Virus record (IMG/VR): IMGVR_UViG_3300021376_000336
Span: 1-24,561 of that record
DNA: 24,561 nt
Direction: 5' to 3' (one strand)
From: a virus
Part shown: positions 1 through 23,665 of the stretch, piece by piece
Position numbering within the stretch: position 1 is the first letter of the stretch
How the letters are laid out: each line of letters begins with the position of its first letter
Made by a program: the position numbers and the translations under genes
Notes under the pieces: model-generated
The model's database searches: none
Seen by the model: only the letters and a program-made list of their open reading frames with translations
What the model was told of the DNA's origin: nothing

Positions 1-3000
1 TCCTCCTTTTTGTCCTGTAGCACCTTGAATACCTTGAGTACCTTGAGTACCGGTAGCCCCTTGCGGACCTGTCGGTCCTGTAGGACCTGTTATACCTTGA
101 ATGCCTTGAGCACCAGTCGTACCTTGCGGGCCGGTAGGTCCTGTAGGACCTGTTATACCTTGAATGCCTTGAGCACCAGTCGTACCTTGCGGGCCGGTAG
201 GTCCTGTAGGACCTGTTATACCTTGAATACCTTGAGCTCCTGTTGCGCCAGTAGCCCCTTGCGGACCTGTTGGTCCAGTAGGTCCAGTTATACCTTGTAT
301 TCCTTGAGCACCAGTAGTTCCTTGAGGTCCAGTAGGTCCTGTTGGGCCGGTTATACCCTGAATTCCTTGAGCGCCAGTAGTTCCTTGCGGACCTGTCGGT
401 CCAGTAGGTCCAGTTATACCTTGTATTCCTTGAGCACCAGTAGTTCCTTGAGGTCCAGTTGGTCCAGTAACACCTTGAATACCTTGCGGTCCAGTTGGCC
501 CAGTAACACCTTGAATACCTTGCGGTCCGGTTGGTCCGGTAGGTCCAGTTATACCCTGGATACCTTGAATACCCTGAGCACCGGTAGTACCTTGTGTACC
601 CTGAGGACCGGTAGTACCTTGAATACCCTGTATACCTTGTATTCCTTGAATGCCTTGTGTACCTTGAGGTCCTGTTGTTCCTTGAGTTCCAGTTATACCT
701 TGAATACCCTGTATACCTTGCGTACCTTGAGGTCCCGTTGGTCCAGTAGGGCCAGTTATACCTTGTATACCTTGAATTCCTTGTGCACCAGTAGTACCTT
801 GTGTTCCTTGAATACCTTGTATGCCTTGAGTACCTTGAGGACCAGTTACGCCTTGAATGCCCTGCGTACCAGTTGTTCCTTGTGTTCCCTGTGTTCCTTG
901 AGGTCCAGTAGTTCCTTGTATACCTTGAATACCTTGGATACCTTGTGTTCCTTGTGTTCCTTGAGGTCCAGTAGTTCCTTGTATACCTTGAATACCTTGG
1001 ATACCTTGGATACCGGTATTGCCTTGGATACCTTGGGTTCCTTGTGTTCCTTGTGTTCCTTGGGTACCGGTATTACCTTGTATCCCTTGAGTACCTTGGG
1101 TTCCTTGCGTACCTTGCGGTCCTGTTGTACCTTGTATACCTTGAATTCCTTGAGTTCCTTGGGTGCCTTGTATACCCTGGATTCCTTGTGTTCCTTGAGT
1201 ACCTTGTATGCCTTGTATACCTTGTGTACCAATTGTACCTTGAGTACCTTGCGTACCTTGTATTCCCTGTATGCCTTGAATACCCTGTATACCTTGCGTG
1301 CCTTGAATACCCTGTATACCTTGGGTACCTTGTACACCCTGTGTACCTTGCGGTCCTGTAATACCTTGGATACCTTGAGTTCCAGTTAAGCCTTGTACTC
1401 CTTGAATGCCTTGCGTACCTTGCGTACCTTGCGTTCCCTGTGTTCCTTGTGTTCCTTGAGTACCAGTATTACCTTGTATACCTTGAGCGCCAGTTGTGCC
1501 TTGTGTACCTTGTATTCCCTGAATGCCTTGGATGCCTTGAGTACCTTGAGTACCTTGGATGCCTTGAGTTCCTTGAGGACCGGTAGTTCCTTGTATGCCT
1601 TGTATACCTTGTGTACCGGTTGTACCTTGAATACCTTGAATTCCTTGTGTACCTTGAATGCCTTGTATTCCTTGAGTTCCTTGAGTTCCCTGTGTACCTT
1701 GCGTACCTTGTATTCCTTGTATACCTTGGATTCCTTGAGTTCCCTGGGTTCCTTGCGTACCAGTGTTACCTTGTATCCCTTGAATTCCTTGAGTACCTTG
1801 AGTACCTTGCGGTCCTGTTGTACCTTGAATTCCCTGAATACCTTGTATTCCTTGTGTACCCTGGGGGCCTTGTATACCCTGTGTACCTTGGGTACCCTGA
1901 ATCCCTTGAATTCCTTGAATTCCTTGCGTACCTTGGATTCCTTGCGTACCTTGAGGGCCAGTAATACCCTGGATACCTTGGGTTCCAGTTATGCCTTGTA
2001 CCCCCTGTATACCCTGTATTCCTTGCGTACCTTGTATGCCTTGGATACCCTGCGTTCCTTGAGTCCCTTGAGTCCCTTGCGTACCTTGTATTCCCTGTAT
2101 ACCTTGAATGCCTTGCGTACCTTGCGTGCCTTGAATACCCTGTGTACCTTGAATACCTTGAATACCTTGTATACCTTGTGGTCCTGTAATACCTTGAATA
2201 CCTTGAGTACCGGTAGTTCCTTGCACTCCTTGAATGCCTTGGGTACCTTGTGTTCCCTGTGTTCCTTGTGTTCCTTGTATTCCTTGAGTACCTTGTACGC
2301 CTTGAATCCCCTGAGTGCCTTGAGAACCTTGTATACCTTGTATACCTTGAATACCTTGAATACCGGTTATACCCTGTACGCCTTGTATTCCTTGTGTACC
2401 TTGTATTCCTTGTGTACCTTGTGTACCGGTAGTTCCTTGCACTCCTTGAATACCTTGTGTGCCTTGTGTACCTTGTATTCCTTGAGTACCCTGTGTACCT
2501 TGTATTCCTTGTATTCCTTGTATTCCTTGAATACCTTGTGTTCCTTGACTACCTTGAGCACCAATTATGCCTTGTACCCCTTGAATTCCTTGAGTACCTT
2601 GCGTGCCTTGTGGACCGGTAATACCCTGTACGCCTTGAATTCCTTGGGTTCCGGTTAAGCCTTGAATTCCTTGAATACCCTGTGTTCCTTGTGTACCTTG
2701 AATACCTTGTATGCCCTGTAGTCCCTGGGTTCCGGTTGAGCCCTGAACGCCCTGAGTTCCTTGAGGACCGGTAGTTCCTTGTATGCCTTGTATACCTTGT
2801 ATTCCTGTATTACCTTGTATTCCTTGGGTTCCTTGTATTCCTTGGGTTCCTTGTATTCCTTGAATGCCTTGGATTCCGTTATTACCTTGAATACCTTGAA
2901 TTCCTTGAGTACCTTGTATGCCTTGCGTACCTTGGATACCTTGGGTTCCGTTATTACCTTGAATACCTTGAATACCTTGAATTCCTTGAGTACCTTGTAT

Positions 3001-3249
3001 GCCTTGCGTACCTTGGATGCCTTGAGTACCGGTATTGCCTTGAATACCTTGAATTCCTTGTGTACCTTGGAGACTAAGATTAGTTCTATATTTAAAAGTT
3101 CCATCCGTATCAGTTACTACTACATTAGTTTCAGTTGAACCTAAAGGTATAGCCGGAACGGCAAGTGATCCGGAAATAGAGAGAGATCCTGTAACTTGTG
3201 AATTATTTAGGGCCTTTAGGCCGTTACGGACAATAAATTCATTCGCCAT
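1..3249 (-). CDS. collagen-like fibre protein, C-terminus outside window
   Basis: An open frame starts at ATG 3249-3247 and has no stop to the window edge, giving at least 1083 codons. The first ~61 residues form a non-collagen head (begins [18 protein letters not shown], then Ser/Gly-rich segments like those of the neighbouring fibre proteins). From residue ~62 on it is Gly-X-Y repeat. Gly codons keep one register from 3064 to 4 (341 positions, no net phase change; several stretches were checked codon by codon without an exception). Y is mostly Gln. X is Ile/Thr in the N-terminal part, with more Pro/Thr/Ala toward the C-terminal part. Gly and Gln codons vary, so the repeat is old. Collagen-like regions in phage fibres trimerise into rods, so I infer a long appendage or adhesin stalk. 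The start is preceded by GGGAGA, one of the few Shine-Dalgarno-like sites here. A C-terminal receptor-binding tip would lie beyond the window. Confidence 0.9.
81..480 (-). repeat. 63-bp minisatellite-type units in the collagen-like gene
   Basis: Positions 81-143 and 144-206 are identical 63-bp units, and the identity continues about 20 bp into a third. The landmark TTATACC recurs at 90, 153, 216, 288, 351 and 414; spacings are 63, 63, 72, 63 and 63. The unit at 288 matches that at 414 almost exactly, 126 bp (two units) apart. Each unit encodes 21 residues, that is seven Gly-X-Y triplets, so gain or loss of units keeps the frame. This is coding repeat expansion, not a CRISPR array. Confidence 0.85.
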
Positions 3250-12285: not shown

Positions 12286-13560
12286 TTATTTTTTTATTCC
12301 AGCAAGCTGTTGCCATCTTGATACAAAAGCATCGGCTTCAACAATCGGACGAGCTGGAGCGCTACCGATTGGTTTTGATGCAAAACCTACGGATTCTTTA
12401 AGTGAAGTTTTTTTAGCTTCTACACTAATTGACTCAAGTAAAGTTTTGTAAGTATTCTCAACCTCTTTGATTGTTGTTGTTCTGTCAAATGCGTTGATTA
12501 CTTTCGTTTTTTGTGATTCAGAAAGATTTTTTGCCTTGAATATTTTATTTACATATAGAAGTTTTGCACTGAAAAGATTGATTTCATTAAGTTCGGTTTT
12601 AAGTGCTTTTATCGTTTTAACAGCTTCATTAAGCTCTTTCTTTATTTCTTCAACCTTGTAAGTGCTTTCGGCTTTAGGATCGATCTCACCACCCGGTCCT
12701 GTACCTTCATCTACTTTATCATTGTGGTGATGCTTTTTCTTAACTTCTTCCATTTTATGCTCTTCTTCTTCAAGTTCAGCTAGAATTTCATCAAGAGAGA
12801 TTTCTTCTTCTCCTGCCTCCATTTCTCCGCCGCTTCCTAAATCTGTTGCAAGTTCAGTACCGCCATCTAGTGATGCTCCAGGAGCCATATCACCGCCCTG
12901 TAATTGCATGAATACATCACGAATGATGTCTTTCAATTCACCTACAGTAATATCAACTACTTCTTGCTCTTCACCGCCTCTAGCCGCTTCGATGTCTTTA
13001 GTAAGGTCCTCGCCGGCTTCTTCAGCCTCGTCGTCTTCTTCTTCTTTTTCATCATCAGCTTCGTGAAGTTTTCCATCGCCATGTGATACTCCGGCGCGTT
13101 CATTATAACCGGTTGCACCTCTGCCTGCTTTTCCAACGTAGCCGTCTTCGGGAACGTGTCCTTCATCGACTGTGTGATCTCCTTCTTCGATATTTTCTTC
13201 AGAAAGAGCATCTAGCTCGGCTAAGATTTCATCTAGTGTAGACTCTTCCATTTCAGTAGCATCATGTTTTTTATGATGCTTCATGGCTTCTTCCATTTCA
13301 GTAGCATCATGTTTTTTATGATGCTTCATGGCTTCTTCCATTTCAGTAGCATCATGTTTTTTATGATGCTTCATGGCTTCTTCCATTTCATTATCCTCTT
13401 CCATGGTGTCGTGCTCTTCTTTTGTGAGTTCTTTTGCCATGGTTTCCTTGATGAAAGGTTCAAAATGCTCAGCGAGAGTAGTTCTGGCGGCAGCCATTGC
13501 AGTCTCACGAACAGCCTTTGCGTCAAGGATTGCTTGCTTAAACAATTCTTGATTTTCCAT
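12286..13560 (-). CDS. 22: prohead scaffold / core protein, gp22-like
   Basis: A 424-aa, very acidic protein immediately before the capsid gene, as gene 22 is in T4. An N-terminal helix (1-50) precedes three perfect copies of EMEEAMKHHKKHDAT (58-102), then acidic linkers with SLDEILAELE twice (about 107-117 and 255-264). The C-terminal third (300-375) holds a coiled coil and LNEINLFSAKLLYVNKIFKA, ...LSESQKTKVINAFDR, a pattern I associate with gp22 scaffolds of marine T4-like phages. Many L-x-E sites (LNE, LLE, LKE) are available for gp21, and gp22 of T4 is degraded to small peptides. The extreme C-terminus, FVSRWQQLAGIKK, echoes the N-terminal peptide of several small proteins here. It is expected to be inside the prohead only. 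Confidence 0.85.
   Translation of the reverse strand: MENQELFKQAILDAKAVRETAMAAARTTLAEHFEPFIKETMAKELTKEEHDTMEEDNEMEEAMKHHKKHDATEMEEAMKHHKKHDATEMEEAMKHHKKHDATEMEESTLDEILAELDALSEENIEEGDHTVDEGHVPEDGYVGKAGRGATGYNERAGVSHGDGKLHEADDEKEEEDDEAEEAGEDLTKDIEAARGGEEQEVVDITVGELKDIIRDVFMQLQGGDMAPGASLDGGTELATDLGSGGEMEAGEEEISLDEILAELEEEEHKMEEVKKKHHHNDKVDEGTGPGGEIDPKAESTYKVEEIKKELNEAVKTIKALKTELNEINLFSAKLLYVNKIFKAKNLSESQKTKVINAFDRTTTIKEVENTYKTLLESISVEAKKTSLKESVGFASKPIGSAPARPIVEADAFVSRWQQLAGIKK
13249..13383 (-). repeat. three perfect 45-bp tandem repeats in the scaffold gene
   Basis: Copies at 13249-13293, 13294-13338 and 13339-13383 are identical. Each encodes a 15-residue unit with the core MKHHKKHD. Perfect nucleotide identity means recent expansion or gene-conversion-like homogenisation. 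Frame is kept. Confidence 0.95.
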
Positions 13561-13623
13561 CTTAAATTTGTTTCGGGGATTGCTAATTAGAGTGTAGCAA
13601 TATAAGGGTGTATAGAATACGAG

Positions 13624-13643
13624 ATGCCATATTAGGATGGCAT
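13624..13643 (-). promoter_or_regulatory. inverted repeat in the scaffold gene leader
   Basis: ATGCCAT (13624-13630) and ATGGCAT (13637-13643) form a perfect 7-bp stem with a 6-nt loop in the 139-nt gap before the scaffold. There is no T-tract on the minus strand. It lies just downstream of the ATATTTAT motif, so it would be in the 5' leader of the scaffold transcript. Function is unknown. Confidence 0.3.
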
Positions 13644-13649
13644 ACGTTC

Positions 13650-13657
13650 ATAAATAT
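13650..13657 (-). promoter_or_regulatory. ATATTTAT motif upstream of the scaffold gene
   Basis: The minus strand reads GATATTTATGAACG, 90 nt before the scaffold start at 13560, in the only sizeable gap between the protease region and the scaffold. It could drive the scaffold-capsid pair. Confidence 0.35.
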
Positions 13658-13699
13658 CTCTGCCTGTACGGAAAACCTTGATTCTTAGTGAAAATTTTT

Positions 13700-14014
13700 T
13701 TATTCAGGTAAGCCGTAAGGGATTCCAAGTACTCCGTGTACGGCTTTTCTAAAGGCTTTTTGAGATTCTAATTGAATTGATTTCATAACTACTTCCTGAA
13801 GTGCTGGGTTATTAATCAATAGCGGAACTTTTCCGTTACCCGGAGTATGAAAAAAAGCGGTTAATTCGATTTTCATCATTCCGTTATCGTCAATATCTAA
13901 CTTCACCGATGGTAGATCGTCTAAAGGGTTAGGGTCTTCTAAAAAATTATGCTCGTGCTCAACAACCCCTGCAAGCTCTTGCAGTCTTTTTACTTCGGTA
14001 AGTTGTTGTTTCAT
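13700..14014 (-). CDS. small head-associated candidate with LTEVKRLQELAGV N-terminus, 104 aa
   Basis: Start chosen at ATG 14014 (MKQQLTEVKRLQELAGVV); a longer frame from 14053 would add 13 residues that overlap a duplicated gp21 tail in another frame. The N-terminus belongs to the recurring M-K-x-x-L-x-E-V-x-R-L-Q-x-(I/L)-A-G family in this window. LTE would be a consensus gp21 cleavage site after Glu7. The rest has an acidic linker (about 19-45), a beta segment (MMKIELTAFFHTPGNGKVP) and a helix (PALQEVVMKSIQLESQKAF). It lies between the protease and the scaffold, where T4-type phages carry small core genes. I infer an internal head protein; no fold is recognised. Confidence 0.75.
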   Translation of the reverse strand: MKQQLTEVKRLQELAGVVEHEHNFLEDPNPLDDLPSVKLDIDDNGMMKIELTAFFHTPGNGKVPLLINNPALQEVVMKSIQLESQKAFRKAVHGVLGIPYGLPE

Positions 14015-14019
14015 GATCG

Positions 14020-14070
14020 TTATTTTATACAGCAAACACCTGATTGAGTGCAAATAATGTCAGAAATTAA
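14020..14070 (-). pseudogene. duplicated C-terminal tail of the gp21 protease
   Basis: The minus strand encodes L-ISDIICTQSGVCCIK-stop, the same 16 residues and stop that end the protease gene at 14348-14398. The nucleotides differ at about seven positions and every difference is synonymous (for example Ser TCA against AGC). No start codon opens this copy: upstream is a TAA, in the same frame as the preceding 82-aa gene. It is probably the displaced 3' end of gene 21, left when a segment carrying its own copy of the tail was inserted or duplicated. Confidence 0.85.
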
Positions 14071-14091
14071 TTATTTAGGATTTCTTATTTT

Positions 14092-14340
14092 TTAATAATA
14101 AGTCTTACTACGGCTATCAACTATTTTATCTACGTCGTAGTGTAATTCAGCTTTAATTTGTTCAATTTCTTCTCCATCCTTTATTTTACTATCTATCCAA
14201 GGACCAATAGCTTCTTCTAGCATATCCATAAAATACCCGCCTCGATCGTAGTCTGGTTCGAATGCTTCGTTTGATTGTGATTGATTAATCAATCCAGCTA
14301 TATGCTGCATTTTCCTAATTTCGTTAAGATGTTGTTTCAT
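14092..14340 (-). CDS. small head-associated candidate with LNEIRKMQHIAGL N-terminus, 82 aa
   Basis: It begins MKQHLNEIRKMQHIAGLINQ, a clear member of the same N-terminal family, with a potential gp21 cut after LNE (Glu7). The remainder is acidic: a Tyr/Gly loop (EPDYDRGGYF), then helices (MDMLEEAIGPWIDSKIKDGE, IEQIKAELHYDVDKIV). It starts 7 nt after the protease stop and is flanked on both sides by copies of the protease tail, so the gene appears to be part of a duplicated or inserted unit. Its stop is in frame with the tail copy downstream, separated by two TAA codons. Function is not known; internal head protein is my inference. Confidence 0.75.
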   Translation of the reverse strand: MKQHLNEIRKMQHIAGLINQSQSNEAFEPDYDRGGYFMDMLEEAIGPWIDSKIKDGEEIEQIKAELHYDVDKIVDSRSKTYY

Positions 14341-14347
14341 AGTTGTT

Positions 14348-14977
14348 TTATTTTATACAGCAAACACCGCTTTGGGTGCAAATAATATCTGAAATTAGTC
14401 TATTAATACTGTTTTTCCTACCCTCACCGCCGTTTGGATCATAAGATTCATTTAATCCTTCCAACGGTTTTACATAAGCACCATATGTTGAAGGTGTAGA
14501 AACGAAATCCCAGCAAATCAATTCTAAGTCATCTTCTACTTGAACGAGACCTTCACCTATTGGTGAAACCGACCCCATTGCACGTGAAGAGACACCGACT
14601 GTAATATTGTTCATAAATAATTCACGTAGTATATTACCTGAAGGTGTATCTAAAACTTCAAACTCACCCATGAGATTCTTACCATCCCACCAGAGTCTAG
14701 TAATATTATGACAAACATTCTTAAGGTTAATAACAGAAGATTCTGGGTGATCAAGCTCCCCAAGCGCCCTTCTTTCAGCAATGGGTCCGTCGATATAGAG
14801 TTTTACTTGCTTAGCTAAAGTATCAAAGTCGTAGATACGCTTGTTAGCATTAGGTCTATCGGCAGCCTGTACGAGACCGGCTACAATAAGTGGGGCTTTA
14901 GGATTCATTCTAGCCTCGTGTAGTTGCCTAGGTAAGGGTGTGAATGGTAGATATTCTATTAAGACTTGCTTACTCAT
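14348..14977 (-). CDS. 21: prohead protease, gp21-like
   Basis: A 209-aa protein close in size to T4 gp21 (212 aa). Serine-protease landmarks are GELDHPESS with His77, and VGVSSRAMGS with Ser130/Ser131; LICWDFVSTPS (154-163) matches the conserved D-x-x-S-x-PS region of this family. It cleaves scaffold, capsid and internal proteins after (L/I)-x-E during head maturation and also itself; GLNESYD near residue 174-180 is a plausible self-cut. The C-terminus ISDIICTQSGVCCIK has three Cys and is duplicated downstream. The start overlaps the stop of the 391-aa gene in an ATGA, so the two are translationally coupled. The assignment is firm from the His and Ser motifs and the position before the scaffold. 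Confidence 0.93.
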   Translation of the reverse strand: MSKQVLIEYLPFTPLPRQLHEARMNPKAPLIVAGLVQAADRPNANKRIYDFDTLAKQVKLYIDGPIAERRALGELDHPESSVINLKNVCHNITRLWWDGKNLMGEFEVLDTPSGNILRELFMNNITVGVSSRAMGSVSPIGEGLVQVEDDLELICWDFVSTPSTYGAYVKPLEGLNESYDPNGGEGRKNSINRLISDIICTQSGVCCIK

Positions 14978-16168: not shown

Positions 16169-16465
16169 TCAGTATAAGTAATCCATAAGCAAATCGTATA
16201 CTAGATCAGAATCACCGTTTAACTCATCTATTTCTTCCTCAGTCATTGGTCTGCCGTCTATATCCGCGCTAACAACATATGCATCAACGTAATCAGGGTA
16301 GTCGTTATGATCTATTCCGTCAAAAGTAACGTTTGTGATCTTACCTGTATGTAGATCGCTTTTCTTGATAAATTCTGGTGTATCAGATAGATCAAGCTCT
16401 TCTTTTAACAGTCCGGCAATTTTTTTCAGCCGGTTGATTTCACCAAGAAATTTTTTAGTACTCAT
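16169..16465 (-). CDS. small acidic protein with LGEINRLKKIAGLL N-terminus, 98 aa
   Basis: It begins MSTKKFLGEINRLKKIAGLL, a divergent member of the shared N-terminal family, with LGE (Glu9) as a possible gp21 site. Residues ~36-98 are acidic and seem to be a compact alpha/beta domain: KITNVTFDGIDHNDYPDYVD, AYVVSADIDGRPMTEEEIDE and a C-terminal acidic helix ending YDLLMDYLY. I have a vague impression that the DYPDYVDAY-SADIDGR segment recurs in other phages, but cannot confirm it. It stands between a 44-aa basic protein and the 391-aa protein, in the T4 position of small core genes 67/68. Internal or core head protein is inferred. Confidence 0.75.
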   Translation of the reverse strand: MSTKKFLGEINRLKKIAGLLKEELDLSDTPEFIKKSDLHTGKITNVTFDGIDHNDYPDYVDAYVVSADIDGRPMTEEEIDELNGDSDLVYDLLMDYLY

Positions 16466-23299: not shown

Positions 23300-23665
23300 T
23301 TATTGAAATATAACGAATTCGTAGGCATCGCTTACTCCCATTGATAATTTAGCTTCCATACCTTCAAGTCCATATTCTTGAGCAGGATATGCAACTGCAG
23401 TCTCGTAGTCAAAGTGGACACCTTCTTCTTGTTGAGTATCTTTTATTTTTTGTAGCTTATTTACTAATTCTGTAGGATTAGCTCTGCGAGGCTCGTCAGC
23501 ATAGTGGCCTGACGTTTCAACAACGACTACAGGCGTGTTCATATCAATACCGGCTTTTTGAAAAGCCTCTTGTACTGATTCAGGATCTGTTTCAAAATAC
23601 TCTTTCAAAATACCTGCAATCTTTTGCAGTTGACGTACTTCGTTTAGTTGTGTTTTCTTTTTCAT
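23300..23665 (-). CDS. small protein with LNEVRQLQKIAGIL N-terminus, 121 aa
   Basis: It begins MKKKTQLNEVRQLQKIAGIL, the clearest form of the shared N-terminal peptide; a gp21-type cut is predicted after Glu9. The mature part (residues 25-121) appears to be a small alpha/beta domain: a Val-rich strand (MNTPVVVVETSGHYADEP), a helix (PTELVNKLQKIKDTQQEE), and an acidic-aromatic C-terminus ending DAYEFVIFQ. It lies after the 84-aa paralogue, with which it shares a near-identical 44-bp stretch over the peptide. The start is preceded by AATAAAAAA with no Shine-Dalgarno. I infer an internal head protein or injected effector; no family is recognised. Confidence 0.75.
   Translation of the reverse strand: MKKKTQLNEVRQLQKIAGILKEYFETDPESVQEAFQKAGIDMNTPVVVVETSGHYADEPRRANPTELVNKLQKIKDTQQEEGVHFDYETAVAYPAQEYGLEGMEAKLSMGVSDAYEFVIFQ
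23601..23644 (-). repeat. 44-bp copy of the N-terminal peptide coding sequence
   Basis: This stretch matches 23868-23911 with about two mismatches in 44 bp. It encodes NEVRQLQKIAGILK. The rest of the two genes is unrelated, so only the leader peptide has been copied or retained. Confidence 0.85.

Follow-up and report, generated by a model that had tools for sequence, protein, structure and literature searches.

A startless second copy of the gp21 protease tail between gp21 and gp22 of a phage as the probable scar of a small-gene import

The window, i.e. the whole stretch of DNA analysed, is a virus record of 24,561 bases, and the virus infects bacteria. Its head genes are read from the minus strand in the order portal, small genes, gp21, an 82-aa gene, a startless second copy of the gp21 tail (here called the relic), a 104-aa gene, gp22 and gp23. 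The features of the gp21-gp22 region are as follows.

14348-14977, minus strand: gp21 prohead protease gene, 209 aa, intact; native to the clade of the window phage by tree and distances
14348-14398, minus strand: live gp21 tail, LISDIICTQSGVCCIK plus stop, AGC for Ser; 4-7 of 48 nt from its nearest relatives
14092-14340, minus strand: 82-aa gene with N-terminal tag MKQHLNEIRKMQHIAGL, the remainder orphan
14020-14070, minus strand: relic gp21 tail, the same 16 residues plus stop, TCA for Ser, no start
13700-14014, minus strand: 104-aa gene with N-terminal tag MKQQLTEVKRLQELAGV, which probably came in with the relic
13561-13699, minus strand: gp22 leader, native by its identity to relatives, and probable right edge of the insert
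12286-13560, minus strand: gp22 scaffold gene, whose C-terminus FVSRWQQLAGIKK is similar to the N-terminal tags of the small genes

The gp21 product matched Pfam Peptidase_S77 (2.3e-25) and the PHROG head maturation protease. Within gp22, an in-frame 45-bp tandem repeat was seen at 13244-13398; the window has three copies and the relative L001 at least one more. The first 3 kb of the window (10-3138) are highly repetitive and have long ORFs rich in repeats on each strand.

Comparison of the two tails revealed that the last 16 codons and the stop of gp21 (14398-14348) recur at 14070-14020 on the minus strand. The copies differ at 7 of 51 nt, distributed over 5 codons, and every change is synonymous, including the AGC/TCA serine codons; the preliminary description, which had reported about seven all-synonymous differences with this serine exchange, was exact. 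As a direct repeat, 14020-14069 and 14348-14397 are 88% identical over 50 nt; the DNA repeat is longer than the tail, covering 78 bp at 83% identity, and reaches the start of each downstream gene. Both of these genes begin with MKQ-x-L-x-E, and the second copy lies behind the 82-aa gene without a start codon, both of which had likewise been described before and are confirmed here. The frame of this copy is closed by a TAA immediately upstream. A partial copy lacking its own start adjoins an intact gene, the arrangement expected of a recombination scar. The gp21 homology of the relic may extend to approximately 14091, a limit blurred by the hypervariable linker of gp21.

To place the locus among its relatives, eighty gp21 loci, labelled with L-numbers, were compared. 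Across these proteases, the C-terminus ISDIICTQSGVCCIK was found to be conserved behind a variable linker. Besides the window, 10 contigs of one population have the double tail, with 99.9-100% identity across the 940 bp that were compared; it is absent from all other approximately 60 distinct relatives. A scan of the viral collection with a pattern based on the relic retrieved only the same 10 population contigs, and a DNA search of phage records gave no match. Two side observations concern the protease itself: the gp21 end contains a conserved cysteine-rich segment (CxxxGxCC) after the hypervariable linker, and a GLNE just ahead of this linker as well as an LIE near the N-terminus resemble self-cleavage sites.

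Both gp21 and gp22 were visible in 52 distinct relatives. A scan of the coding strand revealed no gene in the gp21-gp22 interval of 40 of these and one or two small genes in the remaining 12. Since two of the 40 (L015 and L042) hold a gene on the opposite strand, outside the coding-strand scan, the strictly empty intervals number 38. Thus, one-tailed relatives without the insert, for which the preliminary description had suggested looking, do exist, and a single tail is found in all but the window's population. The relative with the closest gp21 protein, L010, has an empty site, in which the gp21 stop leads directly into the gp22 leader; the two phages are 96.4% identical over window positions 13701-13481, with the intervening ~640 bp missing in L010. 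The gp22 leader is 93.7-96.4% identical to those of L010, L012 and L015-L017, irrespective of the presence of cargo genes.

The origin of each copy was approached via the distance to the tails of L010, L012-L014, L016, L017 and L021. From these, the live tail differs at 4-7 and the relic at 9-12 positions, in a comparison comprising 48 nt only. The nearest gp21 relatives use AGC for the tail serine and the relic uses TCA; as these two codons have no position in common, the serine is a good lineage mark. One relative, L044, is almost equidistant, with 4 nt to the live tail and 5 to the relic. Judged by their sequences, the gp21 body, the live tail and the gp22 leader belong to one native AGC clade. 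The 104-aa protein shows 72-76% identity to its versions in L040, L062 and L105, whose gp21 is 67-75% identical, and 50-54% to those in L014 and L017, whose gp21 is 87-89% identical. The gene trees conflict accordingly, the L014, L017 and L021 versions of the 104-aa gene forming a clade (100/99) without that of the window; the latter groups with genes of more distant phages, which gp21 does not. Hence, both flanks are native, and the segment that separates the 82-aa gene from the gp22 leader is foreign; the relic and its adjoining gene differ in history from their flanks, as is characteristic of a recombination scar. The tails nearest to the relic (L044, L074) belong to other phages than the nearest 104-aa genes, and no phage combining the relic's tail with a close 104-aa gene was found in the viral collection, which limits the detail of the assignment as a scar and not its class.

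We consider it probable, at roughly 80%, that the second tail is a recombination scar, left when the 104-aa gene was imported together with the end of the donor's gp21; the dead 51-base gp21 end would be present because the small gene came with the adjoining piece of the protease gene. The donor would have been a related phage carrying the 104-aa gene directly behind gp21, the usual arrangement of this family, which starts 2-12 nt past the gp21 stop in eight other loci, a spacing that explains why the gp21 end came along. The 104-aa gene and the last ~17 codons of the donor gp21 would have entered the gp21-gp22 interval of the window phage. As to the junctions, we infer that the left one lies at the border of the hypervariable linker of the donor gp21 and abuts the 82-aa gene just beyond its stop, and that the right one lies where the end of the 104-aa gene meets the start of the native gp22 leader. 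Startless and behind a stop, the imported tail would persist as leader of the 104-aa gene and is most likely untranslated. From its freedom from amino-acid changes, we read the transfer as recent in comparison with the split between the two tails.

The preliminary description had offered two readings, a tandem duplication of tail plus small gene and an insertion from a related phage that displaced the original tail. The former would account for the like order of both units (tail, short gap, MKQ-x-L-x-E gene) and for the 78-bp DNA repeat extending into both small genes, which, however, are similar only in a tag common throughout these phages. Moreover, all seven differences are synonymous although the frame of the relic is now unread, an outcome never obtained in 100,000 random sets of 7 substitutions. 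Such a pattern speaks for two gp21 genes, each maintained separately, and we agree with the earlier argument that it favours import. As the gene-tree conflict and the tail distances to relatives also contradict it, in-place duplication followed by divergence is hardly credible, and it was discarded on the grounds of the synonymous divergence and the tree conflict. The import from a related phage has held up, with its polarity reversed: the live tail is the native one, and the copy at 14020 is the foreign one, associated with the 104-aa gene. The opposite polarity, in which the copy at 14020 is original and was displaced by a new gp21 tail arriving on a donor segment along with the 82-aa gene, could draw on the 82-aa gene being unique to the window's population, hence also an addition, and on TCA-type tails preceding a 104-aa relative in some distant relatives. 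It is unlikely given that the gp21 body, live tail and gp22 leader share the AGC clade with the 104-aa gene outside it, and that L010, L012, L014, L016 and L017 have AGC tails without an 82-aa gene.

Retention of the second copy for a function, be it as a leader or translation signal of the 104-aa gene or as an RNA element, was also considered. The final 21 nt are identical between the copies and A-rich just ahead of the 104-aa start codon; yet the relic has no start codon and a stop upstream, and 104-aa relatives also exist away from gp21 without such a tail, making this quite improbable. An RNA element was rejected, with no Rfam match for the relic and a fold no better than that of shuffled sequences (z 0.85). 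Extra constraint at the nucleotide level on the gp21 tail was rejected too, its synonymous divergence being equal to that of the body.

Gene swapping of this general kind is familiar; what is new for the gp21-gp22 locus is this case, with its polarity, and a literature search found no described case of such kind. Arbiol et al. 2010 reportedly described a modular shuffling of small genes between T4-type core genes, with a promoter stem-loop cassette as the unit. Common to both are small non-core genes at fixed places between core genes, whereas the unit in the window would consist of gene end, leader and tag instead of a promoter stem-loop cassette.

An independent sign that cargo tends to move jointly with the gp21 tail comes from L015 and L042, where a gene for a 229-aa GIY-YIG homing endonuclease (L015:2838-3527; L042:1191-1880) faces gp21, overlaps its 3' end by 8 bp and is accompanied by a swapped tail. 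Whereas the gp21 body of L015 is typical of its clade, the tail is unusually divergent, at distances from relatives of 0.375-0.458 for body distances of 0.15-0.19; for other pairs at body distances under 0.21, the tail distance averages 0.18. The tails of L015 and L042 are 0.167 apart, in contrast to 0.279 for their bodies. This pattern is what co-conversion of flanking sequence would give, a process known for free-standing homing endonucleases of T-even phages (PMC2988022). As in that system, the inserted gene takes along DNA of the core gene next to it, and in L015 and L042 a divergent gp21 tail accompanies the GIY-YIG gene that fills the slot; unlike there, the donor tail in the window would have been added beside the native one and not have replaced it. 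The gp21-gp22 interval of the window contains no endonuclease ORF, and among the loci only L015 and L042 have one there. The recoded L015/L042 tail reads IICLNSGVCC, residues that L038 has without an endonuclease gene.

Several small genes that are otherwise unrelated have a short RxQxLAGI-type motif N-terminally, and in the scaffold gp22 it lies at the very C-terminus. The motif [RK][LMWF]Qx[LI]AG[ILV], searched in a somewhat looser form, occurred 83 times in the locus set versus 3.4 times expected from shuffles, with 30 occurrences at small-gene N-termini; the other 53 lie where a reading frame ends, nearly always that of gp22. It recurs in longer contigs, most having one to several tagged genes, and has a few internal matches there. 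In Microcystis phage Mel-JY01, no gene was N-terminally tagged, and the end of the probable scaffold was the sole site of the tag. Sites of this type in the window are 12286-12327, 13955-14014, 14281-14340, 16406-16465 and 23600-23665. We regard the motif as a candidate capsid-targeting tag.

In T4, gp21 cleaves after L/I-x-E, and short N-terminal sequences address internal proteins to the core (PMC9026906, PMC3012670). In 37 tagged genes, L/I-x-E was found at about residue 7, up to the motif, in 29 (background 24%) and at about residue 20 in 25 (background 20%). The 82-aa and 104-aa genes of the window both have E7, and the second site is missing in both. A scaffold-like tag together with gp21-type L/I-x-E sites suggests that the small genes, these two included, probably encode internal head proteins. 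The likeness to the T4 internal proteins (PMC9026906, PMC3012670) lies in diverse small proteins having only a short N-terminal tag in common, and in L/I-x-E sites at fixed places; in contrast to T4, the tag has a different sequence that resembles the scaffold C-terminus. For the T4 protease, loss of the C-terminus by self-cleavage has been suggested (PMC5694885), and, by analogy, the conserved gp21 tail may be a removable piece.

It is conceivable, and we propose it tentatively, that genes for internal head proteins, with a tag copying the gp22 C-terminus, repeatedly refill a slot between gp21 and gp22, that units of gp21 end, leader and tag move between phages, and that the relic captures a single transfer of this kind. 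The scar itself would be a clean fossil of small-gene swapping between essential head genes, in which the end of a core gene was carried in and left behind. The tag shared by scaffold and cargo would predict which unidentified proteins ride in the heads of many uncultured T4-like phages.

As to the two small proteins themselves, PHROGs and Pfam gave nothing significant for either, and for the 82-aa gene no relatives were found beyond its tag. The predicted structure of the 104-aa protein had a mean pLDDT of 73, with no Foldseek match below 0.001, and was uninformative. The same 104-aa gene was observed in a sister phage (L111:1-460; gp23 98.8% identical), with 97% DNA identity over 110 bp. There, it carries a long C-terminal extension that is absent from the window, and an extension of similar kind is seen in L017.
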